33,820 bases of DNA from Chitinophagales bacterium (GTDB lineage Bacteria; Bacteroidota; Bacteroidia; Chitinophagales; Saprospiraceae), in NCBI GenBank assembly GCA_013297745.1, contig JAAFIM010000038.1:1-33820 (forward strand), in the 5' to 3' direction. A program made the position numbers and the translations under genes. This document shows positions 8,683-32,674 of the stretch, piece by piece. Numbering within the stretch: the first letter of the stretch is position 1; every line of letters starts with the position of its first letter. The notes under the pieces were generated by a model. The model was not told where the DNA came from. It did no database searches and saw only the letters and a list, made by a program, of their open reading frames with translations.

Positions 8683-8734
8683 AAAACAGAAGACATATTT
8701 TTGAAGATTATTATGCAAAGTTATCAATAATTGC

Positions 8735-8742
8735 TAATTTTG
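8735..8742 (+). promoter_or_regulatory. Candidate -7 element for the giant Ig-like protein
   Basis: TAATTTTG fits TANNTTTG and lies 40 bases before the chosen ATG at 8782. No TTTG or TTG is seen at the normal upstream distance. The element overlaps the TTG at 8731 that would otherwise be the first possible start codon, which argues for the downstream ATG. Confidence 0.4.
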
Positions 8743-8781
8743 CCCCGCTTTTTACCCCTCATTAACAAAAAACACAATTTT

Positions 8782-11700
8782 ATGCGATATTTTTTCCCCT
8801 ATCTATTACTATTTTATATATTTTTAACAGAAACCAAAGCCCAAATTTTATTCCAAGACATAGCAGATTACAGTATTAATTTGGGACAAGTAGCAAATTT
8901 TGATGCAGACGGCGATGGCGCAGCTGATTTATCCATATCGGGAAATTTTGCCAATTCTATGGGATTTTTTGTAATTTCTATCCCAAACGGCAACAGCGAC
9001 AGCCGCCATGTGCAAAGCCTTTCTAATGGTTTGAATGGGGTACAAAGGCTTAACTTTGGTCAAATAATATCAGCCAACAGCGGTAATTTTGTTAGCGCCC
9101 AAACCAATAGTTGTGTAGTTTGTATCAACAATACAGGCGATTGGCAAGGCGGAACAGCCGATACTTATGTAGGGTTTAGATTGGAAAAAAACAGCACGGG
9201 GCAAATACATTATGGCTGGCTAAGGGTGGCGGTAAGCAGCACGATTAATCAAATCACTATAAAAGAGATAGGTTTTCAACGCAGCCCTAGCATAAGCATA
9301 CAGGTTGGATTTGTACCAATCAATAACTTGACTATCAACGGTTTAGGCGGGGTTCAAACCATTAGCACAGACGACGGACAACTGCAAATACAAGCTCAAA
9401 TCAGCCCCCAAAACGCCAGCCTTCAGCAACTGAATTGGACTGTGGATAATCCCATTTTAGCGAATGTAGATGCCAACGGTTTATTAACCGCTTTGGCTGA
9501 CGGTTCGGTTTTGGTAAGGGCAGAAACCAACGACGGCAGCAGCATTTGGGACACAACTCGGGTGATAATTAGCAATCAAATCGTAAACGTGAACCAAATA
9601 GAGGTTAGTTACAACAACCCCATCCCCGAAATCAACAGTATGAACGGCACGCTGCAAATGACCGCCAACGCTTTACCTACTTATGCCAATAATAGGAATG
9701 TGAATTGGTCTGTTGATAATAAAGCCATAGCAAGTATTGATGCCAACGGGTTGCTTACCGCCAAACAGAACGGAACTGTGCGAGTAGTGGCCACTTCAGC
9801 TGACGGGGGGCGAGTTTCGGGGTACGAAACGGTACAAATTAACGGGCAATTTGTTTTTATAAGCGGACTTAGCATACAAGGCGGCAACAATATCAACTCC
9901 CCCAACGGCACTTTGCAACTTTCTGCGCTCATAAGCCCCAGCAATGCGAACGCGCCACTCGTAGCTTGGCAAGTAGATAGCCCCAAAATCGCTGAAATAA
10001 ACGCAGCAGGAGAGTTATTAGCCCATAGAAATGGAACTGTGCGTGTTACCGCCAAAGCTACAGACGGTAGCGGGGTAGAAAATACCACAATTATCAACAT
10101 CAGCAATCAATTCATACCCGTACAAAACATAACTGTAACGGGTGCAAGCGGTAATTCTATAAGTACAGACAACGGGATTTTACAAATGTTGGCTACAGTG
10201 CAACCAAGTAATGCCGATAATCGCAATTTTCATTGGCAAGTAGATAGCCCCCATATAGCCGAAATACGCCCGAACGGGCAACTTTTAGCCAAAACCAACG
10301 GAATTGTGCGAGTGTATGCTGTAGCTCAGGATAATTCTGGGATAATAGGTTCTAGAACTGTACAAATTAGCAACCAAATCATCAAAACCCAAACCTTACA
10401 GATACAGCCTACAAGCGGTTCTACAGCGATAAACTCGCCTTTTGGCAGTTTGCAACTAATACCCATTTTTACCCCACAAAATACCAGCAATCAGGACGTA
10501 GTTTGGACGGTTGATAATCCCAATTTAGCGGATATTTCCAGTACGGGGCTATTATTTGCTAAACAAAACGGTACTATCGTGGTCAATGCAATCAGCCAAG
10601 ACGGCAGCGGTGTAACAGGCAGTATAAATATCAACATTTCGGGGCAACCTACAGTGATGAACAGCTTACAAATACAGGGAAATTCAAGCATTTCTACCCC
10701 TTATGGCACAAGCCAACTATCCATTCTGTTCAGTCCCAGCAGTGCCACCAACCCGAGTGTAGTTTATACCTGCGATAGACCCAATATAGCGGTGGTTTCG
10801 CCTCAAGGTTTGGTGCAAGCGTTAGCGAATGGAACCGCGACCATCACCGCCACCGCCCAAGACGGGAGCGGGTTAAGCGCAAGTTTTTCTATTCTAATCA
10901 GCAATCAGGAGGTTTTAATCAATAATTTATCCGTGCAAAGCGGTAGAGGCACATTTTCTATCAACCAAGAACGGGACACACTACAGTTATACTCAATCTT
11001 TTCCCCCAGCAACGCCAGCAACAGCAACGTTTTTTGGGCAAGTAGCAACCCTTTAATCGCCACTATCACCAATAGCGGGTTGGTTAGCGCAGTAAGCAAT
11101 GGCAGCGTAACCATAACCGCCCATAGCCAAGACGGTAGCGGTTGGGTGGGGCAAGCGGTTATCAACGTTAGCAATCAGTTGATACCCGTACAAAATATAA
11201 GCATAAGCGGGCAAGCGGGCGCAAACAGCATCGGCACAGCCCTTGGAGAATTGCAATTATCGGCAAATATAAGCCCTAGCAACGCCAGCAATCAGCGCAT
11301 AGTTTGGAGTGTGGACAGCCCCCAAATTGCTTTTTTAAATCCTAATGGGGTTTTAATAGCTAGACAGAATGGAAATGTCAACGTAATAGCCCAATCTATA
11401 GACGGGAGCAACACCTTAGGCACAGCCAATTTTGCGATAAGCAACCAACCTATAGCCGTAAATCGGGTAAAAATTCTATCCAGCCGCAATTTTATCAACA
11501 ACAACGCCGATACTTTACACCTGTTCGCAAACGTTAGCCCCAGCAATGCTAACAATTCTAATATAATTTGGGTTTGTAACCCGCAAAATATCGCCACTAT
11601 CTCACAAAATGGGGTTTTAACCGCCCAAAATAATGGAGTTGCGCAAATCATAGCCCTAAGTCAAGATTTTAGCGGAGTAAGTGATACTTTTTTAGTTAAT

Positions 11701-14700
11701 ATCTCCAACCAAAACACAGCAGCAATAAGCCTTTCGGTAGTTTCCCAATCTGGTAATTACCAACTCAATACCCCCAACGAACAACTACAATTTATAGCGA
11801 ATTTTAGCCCAATTTCAGCCACCGCACCGAGTATTTTTTGGTCTGTAGATAATCCCAGCATAGCCCGCATCAACCCCAACGGGTTACTAACCGCCCTAAG
11901 CGATGGAATAGTAACCATTACCGCCCGCGCACAGGACGAAAATCGCAGTTTTGCCACCACTACAGTAACCGTAAGCGGTCAAAGCGTGCTGATTAGCAAC
12001 CTAGAATTAAACGGTTCTGGGGGTGTGAACGGGATAAACACCTTGAGAGGCAGTTTACAACTAATTCCAACCATAAATCCCAGCAATGCAACCAACACTA
12101 ACCTTGTGTTTAAAAGCCTTTCGGCGAATATAGCCCAAGTTACCCAAACGGGGAATGTGTTAGCTTTTTCTAACGGAATTGCGCAAATTGTAGCTTATAC
12201 TCAAGACGGTAGCGGTATTTGCGATACGATTGATATAACCATTAGCAACCAATTTGTACCCGTCTCCAATATAAGCGTGCAGGGAGTGGGGGGAATTACC
12301 TTTATCAACACAGCAGGGGGCAATTTACAACTACAAAATACGATTTCTCCCCTCGCTGCCACAGTTCAAAACGTGGGTTGGAGTGTAACTGACACCAATT
12401 TAGCGACAATTTCCGCACAAGGGCTGTTAAAAGCCAAATCCAACGGCATAGTTCGCGTACTTGCCCACGCCTTAGACGGTTCAAACGTGAGCGGATTTAT
12501 AGATATAGACATCACCAACCAACCCATTTGGGTACAAACTATCCAAGTACAGGGGCAAGGGGGACAGAATTTCATCAATATAGACAACCAAACGCTGCAA
12601 ATGGAGGCTATAGTACTGCCAGCTAACGCAAGCAACCCCGCTATTCGTTGGCAATTAGTGGGCGGGGGTACAGGTTGGGCTGCTATAAACGCAACTTCGG
12701 GCGTATTAACCCCAAGACACAACGGCACAATCACCATTAGAGCAACCTCTCAAGACGGTTCGTTAGTTTATGGGGAGACTACTATTACTATTAGCAACCA
12801 AACCAGCCCTACACTTTCTATAACCAGTGTGAGCCTAAACGCAGCCAATAACTTCATCAACACGGACAAAGGACGTTTACAAATCACCGCAACTTTATCC
12901 CCCAACGCAGCGAATAGAAACCGAACTTGGAGCGTAAGCCCAGCGCATTTGGCGAGTATAGACCAACGCGGGATTTTACAAGCTATCAACAACGGAACAG
13001 TTACGGTTACCGCCACTTCATTTGTTGGCGGATTGAGCGACGATTTTATAGTAACAATCAGCAACCAATACCAACCCGTTCAAAACATCAACTTAAGCAC
13101 AATCAGCGGCTCTACCAACATAACCGTTCCCAACGGCACGGACAGGTTGCAAACCAACATACAACCCACTAACGCCAGCAATTCAGCGATTTTCTACAGC
13201 CTAAATCCTAGCAATTTGGCGCATATTAGCACATCGGGGGAAATTACCGCTTTTGCAAACGGAACTATCACCGCTACGGCTTTCAGTTTGGACGGCTCTA
13301 ACCAAAGAGAAGCGATTATTATCAACATCAGCAACCAACGCCAAGAAATCAGCAGCTTGAGTATAAACAGCCCCAGCAGCGCGATAAACACAGCTTTCGG
13401 AGAATTAGCAATTTCATTTACGAGTAGCCCCAATTTGGTAAATGTAGCTTACAGCGTCAGCGACAACAGCATCGCCCAAATCAACCCACAAGGGATTTTG
13501 ACCCCAATCGCCAACGGCAGCGTTTGGGTAAGAGTTCGCGCTTTGGATGGTTCCAACCTTAGCGATAGCGTGCAAATTTCTATCAGCAATCAACCCGTTC
13601 TTATCAACGCAATAAGCGTAAGCGGCTCAAATTTTATCAACCAAACCAGCGGACAAGCCCAACTTACCGCCAGCATTAGCCCCAGCAACGCCAATAATCA
13701 AAACATAATTTGGGCTGTAAATGACGAAAATTTAGCGACTATTTCCGCACAGGGCATATTAACCGCCAAAAATAACGGCATTGTACAAATTTACGCACTA
13801 AGTCAAGACGGCAGCGGAATTACAGGAAATTTTTCCATAACGGTTAGCAACCAAAACATAGCAGCCAGCAGCTTGAGTATTTCCAGCAGCACAGCACAAA
13901 ATCAAATCAATACAGCGTTTGGTGCTCTACAAATGTTGGCTAACTTCTCCCCTGCCAACGCCAGCAACCAAAATGTCATCTGGTCTGTTGATAATCCCCT
14001 ACTCGCTTTCATACAACCCAACGGTAAACTGTACGCCATAAGCAACGGAACGGTTATAGTGCAAGCGCACAGCCGCGATGGAGCGAACCTTTTAGCCAGC
14101 TTTTCCGTGTCTATCCAAAATCAACTGATAAAAGTGCAACAAATAGGGCTTAGTTTTTCAAATAATACTATCGCCATTGATAAAGGTACATCACAAATTA
14201 GCTACAGCACCAACCCTATCGGGAATAATAATGTATATTTTCAGTCTCAACAGCCCACTTTAGGCAATATCAATCAGTACGGGCTAATCACTGCCATTCA
14301 GAATGGTTGGTTATTGCTGAAAGGATACGCTCAAGACAGCTCAGGAGTTACCATTTTAGACTCTATTTTTATCAATAATCAACACCAACTCGCTACTGCC
14401 GCGCAAATCTCCACCATAGGGAATATATTTGAAATAAATCAACCCTTTGGAACCCTACAACTCACTGCCACAGCCATTCCCAGCAGTACAATACCTACAG
14501 CATTCCAATGGACGAGCAGCAACCCCGGCATAGCACAAATATACCCCAACGGGCTTTTGGTGGGTAGAAATAACGGGGTGGTTACGATAACAGCGCGCGC
14601 CTTAGACGGTAGCAATGTTTTCACCACTCAAAATGTAACAATTAGCAACCAATCAATAGTCGCTACAGGGCTAAATTTGACCTCTTCTACAGGCGCAAAT

Positions 14701-16314
14701 ACGATAACTACCACCAACGGCAGCCTACAGATGCTCTGCGCCGTACAACCAGCCAACGCAAGCATTCAAAACGTGTATTTTTTCACCAATAATCCAGCCA
14801 TTGCTACCATAAATCAACAAGGTTTGCTCATAGCGAGGGGCAACGGCATAGTCGCTGTACAGGTTCGGACTATTGACGGTACAAATTTAACCACAGCTTT
14901 TACCGTAACGATAACAAACCAACCCACATTGGTCACCAATTTAAGCATAAGCACGGTTAGCAATCAATACCTAATCAATACTTCAGAGGGGATATTACAA
15001 TTTACAAGCCATTTTATCCCCGCCACACCCAGCAATAATCGCCTCGCTTGGGCTGTAACCCCCAGCAATTTAGCTCATATAAACGAAAACGGGTTATTAA
15101 CAGCCTATCAGAACGGGGTTGTTAGCGTTTCAGCGCGCAGTTTGGACGGTAGCAACTTTGTAGCGACCCGCAACGTAACGATTAGCAACCAATCTATTTA
15201 TATTCACAGTTTCAACCCAACCGCAACTTCAGGCGGTCATCTTATCAACACCCGCTTTGGACAAAGTCAATTTGTAGCCAATCCCAGCCCCGCCAACGCC
15301 AGCAGCATTTCCAATATCTGGTGGTCTGACAATCCACAAATTGCATCGGTTTCAGATAACGGATTTGTGCGCGCACACCAAAACGGCAGCGCAAAAATCT
15401 ATTTACAAGCCTTAGATAGAGGCGAGCATTTGGATTCTTTGCTCGTAACGGTTAGTAATCAGCCCGTTATTTGCGATAGTTTGCATATTTTTGCACAAAG
15501 TCAGCTAAATTTTATCAATATATTTGCAGGAAATCGGAATATAATTGCTAACTTTGCCCCCGCTTTGATTAGCAACCCTAATCTTGCTTGGTTTATAGAT
15601 AAACCCAATTTAGCCCGTATTGATGCCAATGGACAAGTTACCGCTTTAGGTTTTGGAAATGACACCATAATCATAACAGCCCGAACCCAAGACCGAAGCG
15701 CAAAAACGGCAATTTGCAGCCTAATTTTATCCAATCAAATCCCCGTCAATGGCTATTTGGTGGAAGAAATTGAGGTTTTTAGCAACAACGCCAACAACAG
15801 TATTAGCCTCAATAACGGCACTTTGCAATTATTTACCAACATATTCCCACAATTCGCCAGCAATACCCAACTCAACTGGAGTGTAGAAAATCCCCAAATT
15901 GCGACTATAGACGCGCAAGGGCTAATTACAGCACACAGCGACGGCACAATGATGGCTTTTGCACACAGCAGCGACGGCGGGCGGGTTTCTGGTTTGTTGG
16001 AAATACAAGTTAGCAACCAAATTATAGCCGTACAAGAATTAACCACAGCAACAGAAGAAAATTTACACGTACAAATTTTTCCCAATCCTGTAAATGATTA
16101 TTTTAATTTGCGGGTGGAAAACGCAGCACTTGGCGAGCTACAACTATATATTTATAGCCTTGCAGGACAGCCAGTTTTTAGCCAGCAGTTATTTGTTAGC
16201 CAAAATCAAGAACAGTTTTTGGTAGAAAATTTACCCTTATTGCCTCCCGCTACTTATATATTGCGGTTGCAAAATGATAAAATAACAAAAACTGTGCTGC
16301 TCATCAAAAAGTAA
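8782..16314 (+). CDS. Giant Big_2-type Ig-repeat surface protein with T9SS sorting domain
   Basis: The 2,510-residue protein starts at the ATG at 8782, which gives a good signal peptide (MRYFFPYLLLFYIFLTETKAQ). Residues ~22-178 form an N-terminal domain with a FDADGDGAADL Ca-binding-like motif and a HYGWLRV segment. Residues 179-2419 are 25 tandem repeats of about 86-96 residues. Each has the pattern I-N/S-T-x-G-x-L-Q-L, then SPSNAS, W-x-V-x-x-P-x-I-A-x-I, G-L-L-T-A, N-G-x-V-x-V and S-Q-D-G-S-G, and closes with ISNQ; this is the Big_2 bacterial Ig-like fold. The last ~80 residues (FPNPVNDYF, YILRLQNDK) are a type A T9SS C-terminal domain. The protein should be exported through T9SS and attached outside the outer membrane, where it may act as an adhesin. 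The substrate is unknown. Confidence 0.9.
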   Translation: MRYFFPYLLLFYIFLTETKAQILFQDIADYSINLGQVANFDADGDGAADLSISGNFANSMGFFVISIPNGNSDSRHVQSLSNGLNGVQRLNFGQIISANSGNFVSAQTNSCVVCINNTGDWQGGTADTYVGFRLEKNSTGQIHYGWLRVAVSSTINQITIKEIGFQRSPSISIQVGFVPINNLTINGLGGVQTISTDDGQLQIQAQISPQNASLQQLNWTVDNPILANVDANGLLTALADGSVLVRAETNDGSSIWDTTRVIISNQIVNVNQIEVSYNNPIPEINSMNGTLQMTANALPTYANNRNVNWSVDNKAIASIDANGLLTAKQNGTVRVVATSADGGRVSGYETVQINGQFVFISGLSIQGGNNINSPNGTLQLSALISPSNANAPLVAWQVDSPKIAEINAAGELLAHRNGTVRVTAKATDGSGVENTTIINISNQFIPVQNITVTGASGNSISTDNGILQMLATVQPSNADNRNFHWQVDSPHIAEIRPNGQLLAKTNGIVRVYAVAQDNSGIIGSRTVQISNQIIKTQTLQIQPTSGSTAINSPFGSLQLIPIFTPQNTSNQDVVWTVDNPNLADISSTGLLFAKQNGTIVVNAISQDGSGVTGSININISGQPTVMNSLQIQGNSSISTPYGTSQLSILFSPSSATNPSVVYTCDRPNIAVVSPQGLVQALANGTATITATAQDGSGLSASFSILISNQEVLINNLSVQSGRGTFSINQERDTLQLYSIFSPSNASNSNVFWASSNPLIATITNSGLVSAVSNGSVTITAHSQDGSGWVGQAVINVSNQLIPVQNISISGQAGANSIGTALGELQLSANISPSNASNQRIVWSVDSPQIAFLNPNGVLIARQNGNVNVIAQSIDGSNTLGTANFAISNQPIAVNRVKILSSRNFINNNADTLHLFANVSPSNANNSNIIWVCNPQNIATISQNGVLTAQNNGVAQIIALSQDFSGVSDTFLVNISNQNTAAISLSVVSQSGNYQLNTPNEQLQFIANFSPISATAPSIFWSVDNPSIARINPNGLLTALSDGIVTITARAQDENRSFATTTVTVSGQSVLISNLELNGSGGVNGINTLRGSLQLIPTINPSNATNTNLVFKSLSANIAQVTQTGNVLAFSNGIAQIVAYTQDGSGICDTIDITISNQFVPVSNISVQGVGGITFINTAGGNLQLQNTISPLAATVQNVGWSVTDTNLATISAQGLLKAKSNGIVRVLAHALDGSNVSGFIDIDITNQPIWVQTIQVQGQGGQNFINIDNQTLQMEAIVLPANASNPAIRWQLVGGGTGWAAINATSGVLTPRHNGTITIRATSQDGSLVYGETTITISNQTSPTLSITSVSLNAANNFINTDKGRLQITATLSPNAANRNRTWSVSPAHLASIDQRGILQAINNGTVTVTATSFVGGLSDDFIVTISNQYQPVQNINLSTISGSTNITVPNGTDRLQTNIQPTNASNSAIFYSLNPSNLAHISTSGEITAFANGTITATAFSLDGSNQREAIIINISNQRQEISSLSINSPSSAINTAFGELAISFTSSPNLVNVAYSVSDNSIAQINPQGILTPIANGSVWVRVRALDGSNLSDSVQISISNQPVLINAISVSGSNFINQTSGQAQLTASISPSNANNQNIIWAVNDENLATISAQGILTAKNNGIVQIYALSQDGSGITGNFSITVSNQNIAASSLSISSSTAQNQINTAFGALQMLANFSPANASNQNVIWSVDNPLLAFIQPNGKLYAISNGTVIVQAHSRDGANLLASFSVSIQNQLIKVQQIGLSFSNNTIAIDKGTSQISYSTNPIGNNNVYFQSQQPTLGNINQYGLITAIQNGWLLLKGYAQDSSGVTILDSIFINNQHQLATAAQISTIGNIFEINQPFGTLQLTATAIPSSTIPTAFQWTSSNPGIAQIYPNGLLVGRNNGVVTITARALDGSNVFTTQNVTISNQSIVATGLNLTSSTGANTITTTNGSLQMLCAVQPANASIQNVYFFTNNPAIATINQQGLLIARGNGIVAVQVRTIDGTNLTTAFTVTITNQPTLVTNLSISTVSNQYLINTSEGILQFTSHFIPATPSNNRLAWAVTPSNLAHINENGLLTAYQNGVVSVSARSLDGSNFVATRNVTISNQSIYIHSFNPTATSGGHLINTRFGQSQFVANPSPANASSISNIWWSDNPQIASVSDNGFVRAHQNGSAKIYLQALDRGEHLDSLLVTVSNQPVICDSLHIFAQSQLNFINIFAGNRNIIANFAPALISNPNLAWFIDKPNLARIDANGQVTALGFGNDTIIITARTQDRSAKTAICSLILSNQIPVNGYLVEEIEVFSNNANNSISLNNGTLQLFTNIFPQFASNTQLNWSVENPQIATIDAQGLITAHSDGTMMAFAHSSDGGRVSGLLEIQVSNQIIAVQELTTATEENLHVQIFPNPVNDYFNLRVENAALGELQLYIYSLAGQPVFSQQLFVSQNQEQFLVENLPLLPPATYILRLQNDKITKTVLLIKK
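9316..16038 (+). repeat. 25 tandem coding repeats (about 270 bp each)
   Basis: These are protein-level tandem repeats inside the giant surface protein, counted by the ISNQ (or VSNQ, ITNQ, INGQ, ISGQ) block that closes each unit. Units are about 260-290 bp. They are diverged in DNA sequence, with only short near-identities such as the GACGGTAGCG and AGCAACCAA words, so the array is old and should be less prone to slippage than young identical repeats. The most degenerate units are numbers 19, 23 and 24. Confidence 0.85.
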
Positions 16315-17112: not shown

Positions 17113-17153
17113 AATAAAAAAGCTGCTTTTCGTGATGAGAAGCAGCTTTTTTT
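17113..17153 (+). terminator. Repeated 41-bp terminator, copy 1 (after rpmA)
   Basis: The stem GCTGCTT/AAGCAGC is extended by T-G, T-A and C-G pairs to a GTGAT loop and by A-run/T-run pairing outside. The 41 bases are identical to the copies at 17745 and 18939. The conserved GC just before the repeat is shared with copy 3 only. Confidence 0.9.
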
Positions 17154-17194
17154 ATAGTTCTTTTATAATTTTATCTGATAAAAACTCAAAAAAT

Positions 17195-17749
17195 ATGAAA
17201 AATATAGACAAAAAAAGCCTCGAACGCGCTTATCAATTGTTTGAAACTGGAGATATAAACCGAATAGAAATTGGCACAACCAAAGGCTTACAACAAATAC
17301 ATAAGTATTTATTTGGAGATTTATATAATTTTGCTGGGCAAATTCGCAGCCAAAATATATCAAAAGGTGGATTTCGTTTTGCCACAGCTTTGTACTTACA
17401 CGAAATTTTAGTCAAAATAGAACAAATGCCAGAAACTAATTTTGAGCAAATTATAGCCAAATATGTAGAAATGAATATAGCGCATCCATTTATGGAAGGC
17501 AATGGCAGAACAATGCGAATATGGCTGGATATGATGTTAAAAACTCGGTTAAAAAAAGTAACTAATTGGCAATTTGTGGATAAAACCCTTTATTTACAAG
17601 CTATGGAACGCAGCCCTATCAACGCTTTAGAGCTTAAAACATTGATTTTTGCTCACTTGAGCGAAGATATTGATAACCGCGAAATTATCTTTAAAGGCAT
17701 AGAACAATCGTATTATTATGAAGGTTATCAAAAAGATGATAACGAATAA
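17195..17749 (+). CDS. fic: Class III Fic protein (AMP transferase)
   Basis: The 184-residue Fic-domain enzyme is predicted to transfer AMP from ATP to a target protein. The core motif [12 protein letters not shown] (residues 97-108) holds the catalytic H97, metal-binding E101 and R108. The C-terminal helix contains S172-Y-Y-Y-E176-G177, the (S/T)xxxE(G/N) inhibitory motif, placed C-terminally as in class III Fic proteins, whose Glu blocks productive ATP binding until it is displaced. From memory, the whole protein closely resembles Neisseria meningitidis NmFic, including the GGFRFA and YLQAMERSP segments. NmFic is controlled by oligomerisation and self-AMPylation and can modify DNA gyrase. 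The chosen ATG avoids a longer frame that would start inside the rpmA terminator. No separate antitoxin gene is adjacent, which fits a self-inhibited enzyme. Confidence 0.93.
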
Positions 17750-18439: not shown

Positions 18440-18526
18440 TAACAGTTTTAAGTTGTATTAAAGCGCGTTTTGGTTGTATTCGCTAATCAAATCATCACTA
18501 TTACTAAACTTTTTAAGGCGTTAATT

Positions 18527-18938: not shown

Positions 18939-18979
18939 AATAAAAAAGCTGCTTTTCGTGATGAGAAGCAGCTTTTTTT
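18939..18979. terminator. Repeated 41-bp terminator, copy 3 (between HTH and caspase genes)
   Basis: The 41 bases are identical to copies 1 and 2. The copy starts one base after the HTH stop codon and reaches the first base of the stop codon of the convergent caspase gene, so it can serve both strands. Confidence 0.9.
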
Positions 18980-20172
18980 TATTTCTGAAAATAGAAATCG
19001 GATTCTATAGATGAATTTTCCCAAGGGATTTGTTTCCCGTTGCTGGCTTTGCGCACGCTGCTGCGTACTTTTTTGAAAATATCTTCCAATTTCAACCCTT
19101 TTTCTGGCAACACTTTTACCAACTCTTCAGTATAAAGTCCATTATTACCCGTTCCGTCTGAAGCTACAGCGTTGGGAGCGGTAGAAAACGCGATTAAAGA
19201 ATTGACGGGCGCATTTTGTACGAGGGTAAAACCCGTGTAATTTTTAGCTTTTTCCCCAAATTGGCTTTTGTAGGGATTATCGCGGCAAGCGTCCAAAATA
19301 ACGATATTCATAGGATTTTCGGCATATTCCAACTCCACAAACACCCGCCCCAAATCCAACGCTTCAAACTCTATATCTTGCGCCTTGCGGATATCGGCAT
19401 CTATAGGCAAAATATAATTTTTGGCATCAGCCTGAATCCCGTGTCCAGCGTAAAAGAACAAACCTATAGCTTTATTATCTTTCAACTGCTGCCCAAAATC
19501 GCGAATGGCTTGTTTCATATCCCGTTTGCTCGCATCCAAAAGTAGCCAAACTTCAAAACCCATTTTCTGTAGTTCTTTCGCCATAGCTGTGGCATCATTT
19601 TTGGGATTTTTGAGCGGTAATTTGCTGTAGCTGCTATTGCCGATGATGAGTGCGAAGCGTTTTTCGTTGGGAATAATCCCCCCTGTAGGGAATAAATGCT
19701 GTTGGTTGGCTTGAGATTGATTATTTTGTAACGGGTCGGGGCGGTTATTGCTTGCCGTATCCACATTGACCACTACAGCAGCTGTATCTTTTTTGACGGT
19801 TAAATCTTCTATCAATTTGCCCCCTTTAAACTTGCCGTGTACAATCCGCCCATCTTTATAATAGTATGTGCCTTCGCCCTCGCGCAAATCTTTGACATAC
19901 TCGCCTATGTACATTTCCCCAACTTTCCAAGTCATTGTGCCGTAGCCGTGTCTTTTCCCTTTTTTGAATTGCCCTTTATACAAATCCCCGCTAGCATAAG
20001 AATAAGCCCCACGCCCGTCAGGTTGGTTGGATTTAAACTCGCCTATATATTTGTCCCCATTAGGGAATAAATATCTACCTTTTCCGTTAGCACAATCTCC
20101 TGTGGTACATTTTTGGGCGGTAGAATGATGAACAAATAAGAAAAAAACAAACATTGCTAAAATAATTCTCAT
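18979..20172 (-). CDS. Exported MORN-repeat caspase-like peptidase (C14)
   Basis: The 397-residue protein starts with a signal peptide (cleavage after the HSTAQ near residue 20). Residues ~28-120 hold four MORN repeats (GKGRYLFPNGDKYIGEF, GRGAYSYASGDLYKGQF, GYGTMTWKVGEMYIGEY, GEGTYYYKDGRIVHGKF). After an Asn/Gln-rich linker, residues ~168-397 are a caspase/metacaspase-type C14 domain: RFALIIGNSSY at its start, catalytic His in FFYAGHG (H244) and catalytic Cys in ILDACRDNP (C296). Both residues of the dyad are present, so it should be active. The DACR context fits basic-residue specificity, but that is inference. The signal peptide places it outside the cytoplasm, unlike caspase-like effectors of CRISPR or gasdermin systems. 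Confidence 0.9.
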   Translation of the reverse strand: MRIILAMFVFFLFVHHSTAQKCTTGDCANGKGRYLFPNGDKYIGEFKSNQPDGRGAYSYASGDLYKGQFKKGKRHGYGTMTWKVGEMYIGEYVKDLREGEGTYYYKDGRIVHGKFKGGKLIEDLTVKKDTAAVVVNVDTASNNRPDPLQNNQSQANQQHLFPTGGIIPNEKRFALIIGNSSYSKLPLKNPKNDATAMAKELQKMGFEVWLLLDASKRDMKQAIRDFGQQLKDNKAIGLFFYAGHGIQADAKNYILPIDADIRKAQDIEFEALDLGRVFVELEYAENPMNIVILDACRDNPYKSQFGEKAKNYTGFTLVQNAPVNSLIAFSTAPNAVASDGTGNNGLYTEELVKVLPEKGLKLEDIFKKVRSSVRKASNGKQIPWENSSIESDFYFQK

Positions 20173-22017: not shown

Positions 22018-22054
22018 AAAAAAGCCCTTACCGAGTTGGTAGGGGCTTTTTTTT
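22018..22054. terminator. Bidirectional terminator between manC and the Toprim gene
   Basis: GCCCTTACC/GGTAGGGGC forms a 9-bp stem (one T-G wobble) with a GAGTT loop. It is flanked by an A-run and a T-run, so it can stop manC (+) and the convergent Toprim-like gene (-). Confidence 0.85.
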
Positions 22055-22754
22055 ATGTCGTTGTGTTGTACTCGGTTAATTTCGCGGCTAACTTGTTGTC
22101 TAACTCATCAATAAACCCAGCTAAACTTTCATTTTCTTTAGCAAATTTATGCAATTTTTGCTGTTGGTAATAAGATTCTGAAAGTCTTGTATAATTTACG
22201 TGCATTTTTTCTGGATTTCCCAGCGCATCGTAGCACTTTTTTATTTTGCTTTTATCCGTTTTAAGCTTTAGCAACTTTTCATTTGCGGGTAACAACCAAC
22301 ATTCTAATTCAGATACAGAAATCGCATAAATAATTTTAGATTGATTTTCTGTTAAAAATTCATCGCCAAAAGCAGCTTTAAATAAAATTTCAAATTTGGT
22401 TCGCGCTATTTCCATAACCTCTAAAACTGTCATTTCTTTAGTCGGGGTAAAATCTAAACGCAACTTTCGTTCATTAAAATGCCATTCGTGGGCGCAATCT
22501 GTATCTATTTGTATGACTATAAAATCGTGTGCCTGAAAAGCGGTTTGAAATGGTTGGCTTTGGCAATAATGAAATACTTTAGTCCAACCGCCGCCCTCTT
22601 GTTGCTTATTGGAAGCGTCCAAAAGTGGGCTTAAAGGTTCTACTTGGATAAAATCGCCGTCTGCATCTCCAAAATAACCAGATAAAATCGCTTCCAAAAC
22701 TGCTAAATCGGTTGCTCCTTCAGCAACACAAGCAAATTTAATCTTTTTAGGCAT
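22053..22754 (-). CDS. Toprim-like protein (DUF4276/RloB-type), partner of the ATPase
   Basis: The 233-residue protein has a Toprim-like motif order: VAEGATD at residues 10-16 (candidate catalytic E12), IQIDTD at 81-86 (D84, D86), and SELECWLLP at 148-156, the acidic-Trp-Leu block seen in DUF4276/RloB-type proteins. It probably binds Mg2+ and cuts nucleic acid, but the nuclease role is inference. It starts 3 bases after the ATPase stop, so the two form a tight operon. Similar ATPase + Toprim pairs occur in OLD/Gabija-, AbiL- and PARIS-type anti-phage systems. I cannot assign it to one of these by eye. Confidence 0.7.
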   Translation of the reverse strand: MPKKIKFACVAEGATDLAVLEAILSGYFGDADGDFIQVEPLSPLLDASNKQQEGGGWTKVFHYCQSQPFQTAFQAHDFIVIQIDTDCAHEWHFNERKLRLDFTPTKEMTVLEVMEIARTKFEILFKAAFGDEFLTENQSKIIYAISVSELECWLLPANEKLLKLKTDKSKIKKCYDALGNPEKMHVNYTRLSESYYQQQKLHKFAKENESLAGFIDELDNKLAAKLTEYNTTT

Positions 22755-22757
22755 AAT

Positions 22758-24119
22758 TTAGAAATTTTTGGGTAAGCCGCCAATATAACCGCGCATAAAT
22801 TTTTCCGATAGCTTGAGCGGCGTTCCATTTTCCATAATTTGTTGATTTTCAACCTGTTCTATTTTCGTTTTTCCTACCCTATTCCGTGACACCACAAAAA
22901 GCCGCTGCGCATCGTCTCGCAAATCCAAACCGTCCAAAATGGCTGGGTTGTGGGTCGTAATAATCGCCTGCTTGTTGTGTTCTTTGGCTAATTGGGCTAA
23001 AATCTCTATCAAACGACTGCCTAATTTCGGATTTAAACCCGTATCTATGTTGTCTATGGCAAAAAAAGTGGGCGTTTCCGCTCCCGTGAACAAAGTCAGA
23101 TAAAATAACAGCAATAAAAACCCCTCATTCGCACTTTTTTGGTCAAATAAAGTCGCTTCAGGCAAAAAACGGTCTTTGATATACAATTTGCGCTCCATAT
23201 TAGAACCCGTTATCTCAAAATACTCAAACCAATCCAATAACTCTCGCAAGTGGGCTTGTATTTTTGGGAGCTGCTCAAAGGCGGCTTTTTGGTTATTCAA
23301 AGTTTCACGCTCAACAAGTAAATCTCTTACTTGCAAAGCAATTTCCATTGAGGCTTGGAATATTTCATTGGTCTGGGATACTCCATAACCAATTTGTTTT
23401 AAGGCTTCCAAAAATTCTATTTCTTTGTTTTGGCGTTGTTCCTTAAATAAATTAGCATCAGTTTTCAATTTGTCATTTTGAGCATTCAATTTATCTTGTT
23501 CTAACATCTTAGCCTTGTATTTTTTTGCTATTCGTTTAGCTTGCGCAATAAACGTTTTTGGATTATGTCTTTCAGACAACAAAAAAAGGTTCCTTTGATA
23601 ATCAAATAATCCTTCTCCTCTTACGCCTAAGCCCTCAATTTGCCCTTCTTCTTCAAATTTTCTTAAAAAGGTATTTTCGGGGGCATAAAGTAGGAAATTG
23701 AGGTTACTAATGGCTTGTCTATGAGGATTTGCAGAAATCACTTGTCCACTAGATTTTGAAGCTGTAAAGCCTTTTAGTCTTATTATATCCACCTCTTCCA
23801 ACTGCCCTTTAACATTTTCATTTATTCTAAAATCTATACTTTCGCCGCTTTCTAAAATAAAATTTATAATAATATCTTCTTTCGCCTTTTGTTCGGCAAA
23901 GGCGGATTTCATAAATCTATTTTCGGTTTTTCTAATCCCACGCGCGAAGTAGTATTCATTATCCAATTTATCTTTTGCAGCAGCCACACCTATAGCAGCC
24001 GCTTCCAAAATGTTGGTTTTGCCACAGCCATTTTCGCCGATGAGGATATTGAGATTTCCGAGCGGCAAATCCATATTTTCTATAGATTTAAAATTTTCTA
24101 TGTGTAGATTGGTTATCAT
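22758..24119 (-). CDS. ABC-type AAA ATPase (OLD/RecF-like), probable defence ATPase
   Basis: The 453-residue protein begins MITNLHIENFKSIENMDLPLG, the typical start of SMC/RecF/OLD-type ATPases. It has Walker A GENGCGKT (28-35), a long central coiled-coil and helical insertion (about residues 195-300), a signature-like SANEG segment near 330, Walker B FFAIDNID (352-359) and the switch His in ITTHN (H390). In Walker B the usual catalytic Glu after Asp is Asn (N357), which may slow hydrolysis or be normal for this subfamily. A frame extended to 24218 runs through the tRNA gene and is rejected. It forms a two-gene operon with the Toprim-like protein and lies just beyond the tRNA-Phe 3' end, a common integration site. 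Confidence 0.85.
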   Translation of the reverse strand: MITNLHIENFKSIENMDLPLGNLNILIGENGCGKTNILEAAAIGVAAAKDKLDNEYYFARGIRKTENRFMKSAFAEQKAKEDIIINFILESGESIDFRINENVKGQLEEVDIIRLKGFTASKSSGQVISANPHRQAISNLNFLLYAPENTFLRKFEEEGQIEGLGVRGEGLFDYQRNLFLLSERHNPKTFIAQAKRIAKKYKAKMLEQDKLNAQNDKLKTDANLFKEQRQNKEIEFLEALKQIGYGVSQTNEIFQASMEIALQVRDLLVERETLNNQKAAFEQLPKIQAHLRELLDWFEYFEITGSNMERKLYIKDRFLPEATLFDQKSANEGFLLLLFYLTLFTGAETPTFFAIDNIDTGLNPKLGSRLIEILAQLAKEHNKQAIITTHNPAILDGLDLRDDAQRLFVVSRNRVGKTKIEQVENQQIMENGTPLKLSEKFMRGYIGGLPKNF

Positions 24120-24180: not shown

Positions 24181-24188
24181 GCAATGCG

Positions 24189-24261
24189 TGGTCTCGGGCG
24201 GGATCGAACCGCCGACACATGGATTTTCAGTCCATTGCTCTACCGACTGAGCTACAAGACC
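24189..24261 (-). tRNA. tRNA-Phe (GAA)
   Basis: The 73-base cloverleaf reads GGTCTTG for the acceptor 5' arm, which pairs with CGAGACC (one T-G). The D stem is GCTC/GAGC, and the anticodon stem ATGGA/TCCAT encloses loop CTGAAAA with anticodon GAA. The T arm GGCGG-TTCGATC-CCGCC is perfect. The discriminator is A, and CCA is not encoded. Confidence 0.97.
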
Positions 24262-29838: not shown

Positions 29839-31044
29839 ATGAGCAATTCTCCCATCCAAAAAATCCTATTTGGTAGCCCTGGCACAGGCAAAAGCCATAG
29901 AATTACAACTGATTACGCCAAACCCAAAGACCAACTTGGCATAGACCCAACTAGTGAAAACTATATCGCTACTGTTTTTCACCCTGAATATACTTATGGG
30001 GATTTTATGGGTAAATTGATGCCTCTAACAAAAGAAAATAAAGTAGAATATAAATTTTATGCTGGTCATTTTTTAAAAGCATTAGCGCAAGCCTACAAAC
30101 AAATATTAATTTACAATTTAAAGAAAGCTGGTACACCACAAGACGTTGATACTGAAAATGATGATACAGAAAACAACAATACTTTGCAAAACAGCGATGC
30201 TCAAAACGATAATGCTCTCCAAAATGTATTACTTGTAATTGATGAAATAAATCGTGGCAATTCTGCCGCGATTTTTGGCACTGTTTTTCAGCTTTTAGAT
30301 AGAAATTCTAATGGCAGTTCCGAATATGGTGTAAATATTTCCGATTTGGAATTTTCCGAGTTACTGTTGTTGATTGGACTACGAGAAAAAACCAAAACTA
30401 CCCCTAACGATGATAACAATGAAACTATCACAATTACAAAAAAACATTCATTCAAAGCAAATTCTAAAACTTATAACAAGTCTTTAAGCGATTGGTTAGC
30501 TTTGCTACAAATTAAAAATAATCAAATCAAAATCCCCTCAAATCTTTCCATTATTGCCACAATGAACACATCCGACAACTCCATATACTTTATGGATAAT
30601 GCTTTCAAACGCCGTTGGGATTGGGAATTCATTGAAATTGAAGACGAAAAACAAAAAGCTTATGCTGCTGGCCACAAAATCATCATTAATGGCCAAAACC
30701 CAATAGATTGGGTGGGTTTTGTGGATAATCTTAATGCCTTCATAAGAAGCAAATATAAAGTTGTTCGCAAAATCGAAGATAAACAAATTGGTTATTGCTT
30801 CATTAACAAAAAAGAAATCTTAGAAGAAGACATAAAAAGCAAATTAATGTTTTTTGTGTGGGATAGTGTTTTTACTACAGATAAAAAACCCTTAGTAGAA
30901 CTACTATTTACCGATAAATTAATGTCTGATAGTGAAAAAAACTCTATCATATCCCAAAAAGAAAAAGACCTAATAACTTTTGGGCAGTTTTCCCATAAAA
31001 ACAATGTTATTAAATTTGTAAACGCAATTTTCAACTATGTTTGA
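29839..31044 (+). CDS. McrB-like AAA+ motor of a restriction system
   Basis: The 401-residue AAA+ protein resembles the NTPase domain of McrB/LlaJI-type motors, which translocate DNA and activate a partner nuclease. It has Walker A GSPGTGKS (12-19), Walker B LLVIDE (131-136) followed by the McrB-typical INRGN, and the ATMNTSDNSI segment (240-249) followed by the MDNAFKRRW arginine block (252-260). There is no N-terminal DNA-recognition domain: Walker A begins at residue 12, so target recognition must lie elsewhere. Residues ~101-129 are an Asp/Asn/Thr-rich low-complexity insert just before Walker B. The stop overlaps the start of the nuclease gene by 8 bases, so translation is coupled. Confidence 0.87.
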   Translation: MSNSPIQKILFGSPGTGKSHRITTDYAKPKDQLGIDPTSENYIATVFHPEYTYGDFMGKLMPLTKENKVEYKFYAGHFLKALAQAYKQILIYNLKKAGTPQDVDTENDDTENNNTLQNSDAQNDNALQNVLLVIDEINRGNSAAIFGTVFQLLDRNSNGSSEYGVNISDLEFSELLLLIGLREKTKTTPNDDNNETITITKKHSFKANSKTYNKSLSDWLALLQIKNNQIKIPSNLSIIATMNTSDNSIYFMDNAFKRRWDWEFIEIEDEKQKAYAAGHKIIINGQNPIDWVGFVDNLNAFIRSKYKVVRKIEDKQIGYCFINKKEILEEDIKSKLMFFVWDSVFTTDKKPLVELLFTDKLMSDSEKNSIISQKEKDLITFGQFSHKNNVIKFVNAIFNYV

Positions 31045-32674
31045 TATAAGCAAAATCCATTTTAAGAACGATGCGACACGAGATAATAGCACCTATTCTT
31101 TTGTTGGCTTACAAAAAAATAAAGAAACAGGAGAACTAGAGTTTTGGCTGCCTTTGGGATTTGATACATTCCCCAAAGACCCCAAGGACTTTGAAAGCAC
31201 AAAAAAATTCTTTTTCCGAATGTATCGTACTTTCCAAGTTTATCGCGATAGAAAACTGACCAACTATCAAGCCTCCTTAAAGGAATTTTTAACGAATGAT
31301 AGAGATGGTATTTTTGAGCAAAATGAAAAAGGTTTTAGTTTCATCAATAACAAAGATAACACTGAAACCGTTTTTTATGGCAAATTGAATGCCCTAGACA
31401 AAATCTTACATGGTTATGACGAATTGCGCATTGCTTCTTTAGAAAAAAAACAAGTTCGTTCGCACCAAATAGATTATTCCAAAATCTATAAATATATGCA
31501 TCAGGCTGTATTTTTGGAAGGCGATGTGATTTATTTGGACGAAATGAATATCTCTAAAAATATCATTTTGCAAGAAAGCCCTACTATTGTGCAAATGTTT
31601 TGCTTTATCTACACGGAAATCAAAACCGAATTAGAGGAAATTGATAGCGTTGCTAATCGTGTTCTGGAACTATCTGACCAATTCAAAGAAAAACATTTGC
31701 ATCCTCAAGGCGGTTTATTTGCAGAAGATACTTTTGCAGACACTATTGAAACGCTTAAGATATTGCTTGAAGAAATTGAAACCAAAACCACGTATAAAGA
31801 TGAGGACTTTTGGCATTTCTATGAAGCAGTAGAAGCATTTTTGTATGGCGAGAAGCAAGATGACAGCGATGGTATATATTTTGGCATTAGCAGTTTTGCT
31901 GATGTCTGGGAAGATATGTGCCAAAGTTATATGTTGGCGCAATCTGAAATTCAAGAAACCGTGCTTTTCGCTGATATTGATGGCTTCTTAAAAAATCGGA
32001 AGCATCTAGGTCTTCCCGAAATTTTGCAAAAAGAAGAAACAGATTTGAATCCATTTATGCTAACAATGGATGCCTCAGAACAAAAACGCTACTTACGTCC
32101 TGACTTGGTATATGTAGAAAAGAACAGAGAAATATCATTGTCAGCTCACGTAGATGACTACATAGATTGGAAGACAGAGCATTTCAATAAAATAAGGCAT
32201 AGTATAAAATACTATTCAGGTTACCCTGTAAATACCTCTATAAAAGATTCAATTTCAACACTCATAATAAACAAACAGAAAGAGTTGAAAAAAAACAATA
32301 AAAACCCAAATCTAACAGAAAAAGAAATCAGAAGTGATTTTGAAAGCTGGCAATCTTTATTCATTAAGGTGATTGACTACAAATATCTCCGTCTATCTGA
32401 CTATGAAAAGTACATTGATGGAAAAGGCGAAAACAAAATTAAAAGCGATATTGATAAGCAATTGATTTATGAATGGACTTTGCAACAAAATTTTGGAAAA
32501 TCCAAAACAAGTAGCGCATTTTGGATACCCTACTATCCTAACAATATAGACTCTACACAATCTACAAAAGATATTGCAAAACGTTGTATTTCAGACTTAA
32601 AAGACAGCCGTATTGAGGTTTTTCAAATCAATTTCAAAATTTTGCAGGCGCATTATGTCAAATTATCAACCTAA
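31037..32674 (+). CDS. McrC/LlaJI-like restriction nuclease subunit
   Basis: The 545-residue protein is predicted to be the nuclease partner of the AAA+ motor. The C-terminal region has a PD-(D/E)xK pattern: RPDLVYV (D356) and, about 90 residues later, VIDYKYL (D447, K449), the same order as the McrC nuclease. FADVWEDMC near 288-296 resembles the VWE motif seen before the nuclease core of LlaJI/DUF2357-type proteins. The N-terminal ~280 residues are unassigned and may hold the target-recognition or motor-binding part. I see no DNA methyltransferase gene, so it is more likely a type IV-like system (cutting modified or foreign nucleic acid) than a classic restriction-modification pair. The next gene starts 20 bases before its stop. 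Confidence 0.75.
   Translation: MFDISKIHFKNDATRDNSTYSFVGLQKNKETGELEFWLPLGFDTFPKDPKDFESTKKFFFRMYRTFQVYRDRKLTNYQASLKEFLTNDRDGIFEQNEKGFSFINNKDNTETVFYGKLNALDKILHGYDELRIASLEKKQVRSHQIDYSKIYKYMHQAVFLEGDVIYLDEMNISKNIILQESPTIVQMFCFIYTEIKTELEEIDSVANRVLELSDQFKEKHLHPQGGLFAEDTFADTIETLKILLEEIETKTTYKDEDFWHFYEAVEAFLYGEKQDDSDGIYFGISSFADVWEDMCQSYMLAQSEIQETVLFADIDGFLKNRKHLGLPEILQKEETDLNPFMLTMDASEQKRYLRPDLVYVEKNREISLSAHVDDYIDWKTEHFNKIRHSIKYYSGYPVNTSIKDSISTLIINKQKELKKNNKNPNLTEKEIRSDFESWQSLFIKVIDYKYLRLSDYEKYIDGKGENKIKSDIDKQLIYEWTLQQNFGKSKTSSAFWIPYYPNNIDSTQSTKDIAKRCISDLKDSRIEVFQINFKILQAHYVKLST

Follow-up and report, generated by a model that had tools for sequence, protein, structure and literature searches.

A conserved ATPase and Toprim-like gene pair with a likely role in phage defence in a Chitinophagales bacterium

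Genes at the locus

The window analysed here is a stretch of 33,820 nt from a Chitinophagales bacterium (Saprospiraceae), positions 1-33,820 of the forward strand of contig JAAFIM010000038.1 in assembly GCA_013297745.1. Next to a tRNA-Phe gene it carries a two-gene operon encoding an ABC-type ATPase and, downstream of it, a smaller partner protein with a predicted Toprim-like fold, a pair for which a role in phage defence is likely (Table 1). A first-pass annotation of this DNA had placed the two genes 3 nt apart and the ATPase 69 positions past the 3' end of the tRNA. Both distances are confirmed, the first being the interval 22755-22757 and the second being counted to the ATPase ATG. A GTG at 24218, upstream of this ATG, is likewise in frame, and the methionine at the ATG is near-invariant among 71 aligned homologues. 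Beyond the inverted repeat on the far side of the pair lies a convergent gene, which from its translation we read as a sugar-phosphate nucleotidyltransferase.

Table 1. Coordinates of the gene pair, its motifs and the adjoining features in the window.
Feature	Position	Strand	Basis
ATPase gene of ABC/OLD type (453 aa), distantly related to PADLOC PDC-M31A	22758-24119	-	translation, PADLOC, Pfam, model
Walker A motif GENGCGKT	24015-24038	-	sequence; K34 in 71/71 rows
NEG signature-region motif, ATPase residues 331-333	23121-23129	-	alignment
Walker B FFAIDNID, with Asn (N357) in place of the catalytic Glu	23043-23066	-	alignment
Partner gene (233 aa), Toprim-like and DUF4276-like, probably a two-metal nuclease	22053-22754	-	translation, DUF4276, PDC-M31B, profile comparison, fold matches
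Toprim E12-x3-D16 (metal A and metal B ligands by analogy to OLD)	22707-22721	-	alignment, PMC7049728
Toprim D84-x-D86	22497-22505	-	65/65 rows each
ELECW block; E151 corresponds to Glu of the OLD SxE metal-B pair	22296-22310	-	alignment
tRNA-Phe(GAA), neighbour of the module and outside it	24188-24261	-	ARAGORN
Terminator-like hairpin and T-tract between tRNA and ATPase start codon	24153-24180	-	hairpin scan
Inverted repeat with A/T tracts between pair and convergent gene; likely shared terminator	22018-22052	.	15-nt arms, 93% complementary

Conservation and co-inheritance of the pair

The pair consists of real genes, and chance open reading frames (ORFs) are excluded, because a matching partner lies downstream of the ATPase in 73 of 87 loci, with a gap of 0-5 nt in 43 of the 73. 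These loci comprise seven from the window's own and related genomes and 80 from a scan of one genome per species over 84,980 species, in which 119 stretches were confirmed and the best 80 kept. The scan loci fall in Bacteroidota, Cyanobacteriota, Pseudomonadota and other phyla. The partner went unmatched in the remaining 14 loci, seven without a downstream ORF of the set size and seven with a non-matching one; in three of the 14 (L015, L028 and L040) the sequence ends no more than 410 nt past the ATPase stop codon, and in the C75 copy described below the partner is split.

ATPase and partner are co-inherited across many phyla. Over 62 pairs their distances correlate with r = 0.821, a value that shared species history also raises, compared with a largest value of 0.222 in 1000 permutations. 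The chromosomal pair looks mostly old and locally inherited, and the Microcoleaceae-type, Runella and Arcicella-type loci have neighbours common within each group. It is also rare among the relatives of the window's bacterium: among 395 genomes of the class the ATPase reached E 1e-40 in seven, its own included, and the partner was found in one of 60 relatives, which is its own genome.

An asparagine in the Walker B motif of the ATPase

Both proteins match one PADLOC family, the ATPase through PDC-M31A (E 9.7e-61, 204 bits) and the partner through PDC-M31B (E 1e-10). We take PDC to stand for 'phage defence candidate'. The ten strongest PDC-M31A matches in the phylum score 528-648 bits, however, and PDC-M31A loci are 34-41% identical to the window ATPase over BLAST segments. 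Judged by these comparisons the window copy is a separate branch, a relative rather than a core member of PDC-M31. The window's genome holds a second relative of the pair on contig C75 (L011, G000:C75, 7679-9905), which at 279.6 bits lies nearer to PDC-M31A. Its partner gene looks broken, being split into two ORFs, one matching the beginning and the other the end of an intact relative.

The ABC-type identity assigned at first pass is borne out by this PADLOC match, by Pfam matches to AAA_15 (2.5e-17), AAA_21 and SMC_N, and by a structural model (predicted local distance difference test, pLDDT, 84.3) that is similar, at Z about 19, to SMC heads and to the PtuA ATPases found in Septu and retrons. 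AriA of PARIS is also among the profile matches, its model (E 9e-24) being weaker than PDC-M31A. From the Walker A motif we infer that the protein binds ATP. ATPases of the AAA_15 type are numerous in the window's genome, with at least 19 match places (26 of 77 candidates scored) compared with 0-7 in each of 59 other genomes of the class.

At the position of the catalytic glutamate in Walker B the ATPase has an asparagine. Pairwise alignments set its FFAIDNID against DEVD in SMC, DEPT in an ABC transporter and DEID in a retron ATPase. The change from Glu to Asn is a family trait, present in every copy read. All 71 rows of the ATPase alignment have DN here, of which 66 come from the species scan, where each of the 80 loci holds the peptide FFAIDNID, so that their Asn is there by construction and carries no weight. 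Unbiased copies with DN come from other sources: L012-L017, found by a whole-protein search (L012 matches the Runella copy L020 of the scan); the C75 relative; all 11 PDC-M31A loci read, mainly from closely related genomes; and three plasmid and 11 viral copies, seven of the viral ones without FFAIDNI.

Walker B could be read in 12 of the 19 loci examined around DUF4276 matches. Apart from the window itself, which is among the 12, all of them (11) have DE or EE. The signature region reads NEG in the window family, SEG in the PDC-M31A clade and SDG in 11 of the 13 other ATPases upstream of DUF4276 matches. Asn at the place of the catalytic Glu is not unique to the window family, as a general AAA_15 sample has EN at Walker B in 3 of 11 readable motifs (L189, L193, L201), hinting that the catalytic Glu was lost more than once. 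In the window family the Asn suggests an ATP-bound latch rather than a cycling ATPase.

The partner is a predicted Toprim-like nuclease

The partner is, by profile and model, a divergent DUF4276-like protein for which a Toprim-like fold is predicted. Its match to DUF4276 (PF14103) reached 30.4 bits at a cut-off of 30.2, and 29.5, below the cut-off, in the genome search, which returned four DUF4276 matches in the window's genome. Profile comparison with 14 DUF4276 proteins from related genomes gave a probability of 95.8% over 31 columns around EGxT(D/E), and comparison with the seven strongest DUF4276 sequences gave 80.2% over 118 columns; a reversed-sequence control gave 0.1%. Against solved structures the protein as query returned no sequence match, and its profile returned one match at chance level (E 0.93).

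A model of the partner (mean pLDDT 86.6) gave VIA matches to a P. horikoshii protein (Z 7.8, root mean square deviation (r.m.s.d.) 4.1, 169 residues), to the C-terminal region of B. pseudomallei OLD (Z 7.2, r.m.s.d. 4.8, 169 residues), to chain A of the PARIS complex (Z 6.5, r.m.s.d. 4.4, 166 residues), to X. campestris OLD (Z 6.0, r.m.s.d. 4.5, 159 residues) and to GajA (Z 5.5, r.m.s.d. 4.9, 164 residues), with a further OLD C-terminal region at Z 5.9. Chain A is taken as AriB, chain B being named AriA. Proteins other than Toprim were matched as well, namely a TIR-STING chain (Z 6.1) and lumazine synthases (Z 5.9).

In the TsOLD and BpOLD enzymes metal A is reported to be bound by E, D and D, and metal B by an acid four residues after the metal-A glutamate together with an S/T-x-E pair (PMC7049728). 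All three metal-A ligands are kept in the partner family, as E12, D84 and D86 in 65 of 65 homologues, in which G13, P43 and W153 are also invariant and C152 is near-invariant. Position 16 is D or E in all 65, and position 151 is E in 64 and D in one, so the window partner keeps two of the three metal-B positions. At the third, position 149, 36 of the 65 rows have S or T and 23 have E, the window copy among the latter. The E12, D84-x-D86 and ELEcW block singled out at first pass are therefore present and conserved, and the partner is a probable two-metal nuclease. The Toprim fold itself is a prediction: OLD, PARIS and GajA are among the matches of a confident model, at Z 5.5-7.2 and a best Foldseek E of 6.8e-3, and the metal-ligand layout adds weight to it.

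Relatives on plasmids and in viral contigs

Relatives of the pair are carried by mobile elements. Among 72,556 plasmid records the ATPase was found in eight and the partner in seven, including small plasmids of Paracoccus (5.8 kb, seven listed genes) and Acinetobacter lwoffii (10.3 kb); the small plasmids that carry relatives are mobilizable. A search of 50,697 phage records gave one partial match. The viral contigs of IMG/VR, which are predicted computationally, yielded 17 confirmed loci, and 12 of these matched with E values of 6e-23 or better. Ten of these 12 are distinct loci with a partner match; L222 has no partner match, and L214 repeats L213, to which it is identical over 9.5 kb. An integrase gene lies near the pair in L217, L213 has repressor and CII-like genes, and a baseplate gene adjoins the pair in L215 and L221.

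In four viral contigs (L211, L216, L219 and L220) the pair adjoins a portal gene (phrog_68), with terminase and scaffold genes, an arrangement that we take to be the P2 layout. The first and last of these are nearly identical in portal (96.0%), terminase (99.5%) and scaffold (97.8%), yet their ATPases share only 45.8% and their partners 31.0%. Conversely, L219 and L220 agree in ATPase (94.0%) and partner (98.1%), yet differ in portal (82.7%) and scaffold (78.9%). The pair thus differs between phages that are otherwise nearly identical and is shared by phages that have diverged, so that from these sequence comparisons the cassette seems to be exchanged at a fixed place in P2-like contigs. The stretch from gpA to gpQ in P2-like phages of E. 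coli is described as a hotspot of anti-phage systems, where P2 old and tin are found along with further defence systems that have been tested (PMC9122126).

Relation to known systems

The first-pass annotation had suggested that the type may be new. The family is already a PADLOC candidate, PDC-M31, so this holds in part: full-text literature searches, in a collection with few subscription papers, brought up no paper on it among the titles and abstracts listed. At least 11 uncharacterised OLD clades are reported in PMC12796447, one of which may be the window family. A 2026 paper credits a 2020 survey of ABC ATPases with an earlier description of Toprim-linked OLD-ABC operons (PMC12839542).

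Canonical DUF4276 pairs, perhaps PADLOC HEC-01, share with the window the order of an ATPase followed by a DUF4276 protein, and their partners are related to the window's by profile. They differ from it in that 10 of the 13 other loci with an upstream ORF overlap by 4 nt, 11 having the SDG signature, and in their DE or EE Walker B, whereas in the window family the two motifs read NEG and DN and the genes are mostly separated by a few bases. PARIS (AriA-AriB), which is placed as class 4 of the OLD family (PMC12796447, PMC10568477), also consists of adjacent, split genes for an ABC ATPase and a Toprim protein, the Toprim of the window being predicted; the partner has a fold match to the presumed AriB chain and the ATPase a profile match to AriA. 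However, AriA ranks behind PDC-M31A for the ATPase, and no AriB model matched the partner up to E 1. With P2 OLD and the class 1 OLD proteins the partner shares its ligand pattern of E, an acid at +4, DxD and x-x-E, and relatives of the window pair occupy the phage slot of P2 old. Class 1 OLD is one fused protein, whereas the window has two genes, and the S/T of its S/T-x-E is E in the window copy.

Proposed mechanism and alternative explanations

A defence role for the pair is likely because the family is the PADLOC candidate PDC-M31, because relatives sit on small plasmids, and because relatives occupy the portal-side slot of P2-like contigs. We think it probable that the two genes form a compact anti-phage module operating in the manner of PARIS and other split OLD systems, with the ATPase as sensor and keeper and the Toprim-like protein as effector nuclease. 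In PARIS the ATPase is reported to hold the Toprim nuclease until a phage protein is sensed, after which tRNA is cut (PMC12409363), and we propose a similar logic here because the gene layout is the same. The ATPase would bind ATP, oligomerise through its SMC/Rad50-like heads and keep the nuclease inactive. As the catalytic Walker B Glu is Asn, it may stay ATP-bound, so that the holding state would be one of ATP binding and not of turnover. The complex would then open in response to a trigger made by the phage or to a shift in nucleotide state, and the freed or activated nuclease would cut nucleic acid, either tRNA or DNA, using two metals. Infection would be stopped, probably at the expense of the cell.

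A stronger version of this proposal is possible but doubtful. In it the pair would belong to a multi-phylum split OLD-like defence family in which the ATPase, lacking the hydrolytic Glu by descent, is a natural ATP-trapped latch that silences a two-metal Toprim nuclease and is fired by a phage protein or by a fall in ATP, with ATP acting as a sensor ligand rather than as fuel. If the module works as we propose, a widespread and uncharacterised family of split ATPase-Toprim systems can be tested directly by means of well-defined active-site mutants, and the natural exchange of alleles between near-identical P2-like phages offers ready-made comparisons. In this class the Walker B Asn would also uncouple the binding of ATP from its hydrolysis. 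That distinction is a current question for OLD-type systems, and DNA cleavage by Retron-Eco8 is reported not to depend on hydrolysing ATP (PMC12887533).

Several observations weigh against this interpretation. Every VIA Z of the partner is below 8 and no Foldseek E is below 0.001 (best 6.8e-3, to an OLD protein), so the Toprim claim leans also on the metal-ligand pattern. The viral and plasmid copies are relatives of the window pair, not the window copy, and the P2-like contigs end near the pair, so that the slot is seen from the portal side; towards gpA, before the contig end, two of them show an anti-repressor-like gene. No assay of any family member was found in the literature search, within the scope given above. 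No defence-island signal was found for the chromosomal copies: the commonest PADLOC family among the matches listed accounts for 3 of 144 nearest neighbours and 3 of 135 control genes. The neighbours were 146 genes, of which two were dropped for the size limit, genes above 1200 aa having been left out, and the controls were a random draw of 135 of 181 genes under the size limit, from 20 places chosen beforehand in genomes of the window's class. PADLOC families numbered 105 for the neighbours and 30 for the controls, with at most three members each, totals that do not compare easily, because many models can be matched by a handful of ATPase neighbours, those of the tandem pair in L049 included; defence genes may therefore be weakly enriched beside the pair. 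Among the matches listed, the commonest Pfam families of the neighbours are general ATPases and ordinary cell genes. In the 25 largest clusters of 762 neighbour genes from 80 loci no third gene holds a fixed position by the pair across unrelated groups; a few clusters span groups, and their positions differ. A quick tree of 73 ATPase rows of 340-480 aa tracks the phyla, with nine changes for eight groups where the minimum is seven and the shuffled mean 30.8, the Bacteroidota branch having a support of 58 and the window copy being a long branch of unsure placement. Ten Microcoleaceae-type loci have a common downstream neighbour, and this and the shape of the tree are unusual for fast-moving defence genes.

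Three other functions may be considered. The two proteins could form a permanent OLD-like complex that attacks phage or plasmid DNA directly, with no holding state and no cell death. The closeness of the ATPase fold to SMC/Rad50 heads and PtuA, the matches of the partner to OLD C-terminal regions (Z up to 7.2) and its conserved OLD metal ligands would all suit such a nuclease, while the loss of the Walker B Glu argues against a motor that turns over ATP; the data do not separate this mode from the holding mode, and overall we consider it unlikely. It is less probable still that the pair is an addiction or toxin-antitoxin system, with the ATPase as antitoxin and the Toprim protein as toxin, serving mainly to retain plasmids and prophages. 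This would agree with the relatives on small mobilizable plasmids and with the co-inheritance of the two genes, but the order of ATPase plus nuclease fits PARIS equally, and addiction would be of little benefit to chromosomal copies that occur singly among conserved neighbours. A housekeeping role, for example in repairing DNA or controlling the cell cycle, appears similarly improbable; such a role is reported for Cran1, an archaeal protein of the OLD family (PMC12796447). The ATPase tree that follows phyla, the shared neighbours of the Microcoleaceae-type loci and the ordinary genes nearby speak for it, as does the Cran1 precedent; against it stand the rarity of the pair in the class and among relatives, and the carriage of its relatives on plasmids and their exchange between P2-like phages.

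The remaining question is whether the module was carried in at the tRNA, as had been supposed at first pass, in the form of a genomic island inserted site-specifically at the tRNA-Phe 3' end. Only the 69-position distance favours this, and we regard it as very improbable. The tRNA 3' end is single in the genome at up to two mismatches, a hairpin separates it from the pair, and no integrase lies in the pair stretch, where the two genes are the only ORFs of at least 80 aa between 22053 and 24119. Hairpin-type sites are no rarity here (three found, 2.8 expected in shuffles), so the argument is the place of this one and not its presence. The GC content of the pair, 0.365, is about one standard deviation below the mean of same-size windows (0.404, standard deviation 0.037). 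At 81 other loci, many of them shortened by contig ends, any tRNA was found in nine and one within 1 kb of the ATPase in one. An empty site could not be shown by comparing the tRNA-Phe locus in relatives: the gene upstream of the tRNA, read as glycosidase/beta-lactamase-like, has relatives at 29 loci outside the window, none of which has a tRNA within 1.5 kb, and at 29 relative loci matching the tRNA, the weaker of which may be other tRNAs, no homologue of either pair gene lies within 1.5 kb. Integration at tRNA-Phe is therefore rejected, and the tRNA is best read as a chance neighbour of the pair.

Other genes in the window and among the relatives

At L049 (7320-10933) the ATPase-partner pair is duplicated in tandem. 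In the window, 5.7 kb from the pair, two genes of low GC (0.325 and 0.336) at 29839-32674 may form a restriction-type system: one encodes an AAA_5 motor that we read as McrB-like (PADLOC REase_II, 2.6e-32), and the gene overlapping it encodes a protein of 545 aa that neither Pfam nor PADLOC matched at the limits used. A Fic/DOC protein is encoded at 17132-17749 (GC 0.316), with PDC-S04 as its best PADLOC match (4.9e-91), followed by a helix-turn-helix (HTH) gene at 18470. A caspase-domain protein with MORN repeats is encoded at 18979-20172, and an ORF of 2527 aa at 8731-16314 has a translation that apparently consists of many similar repeats.

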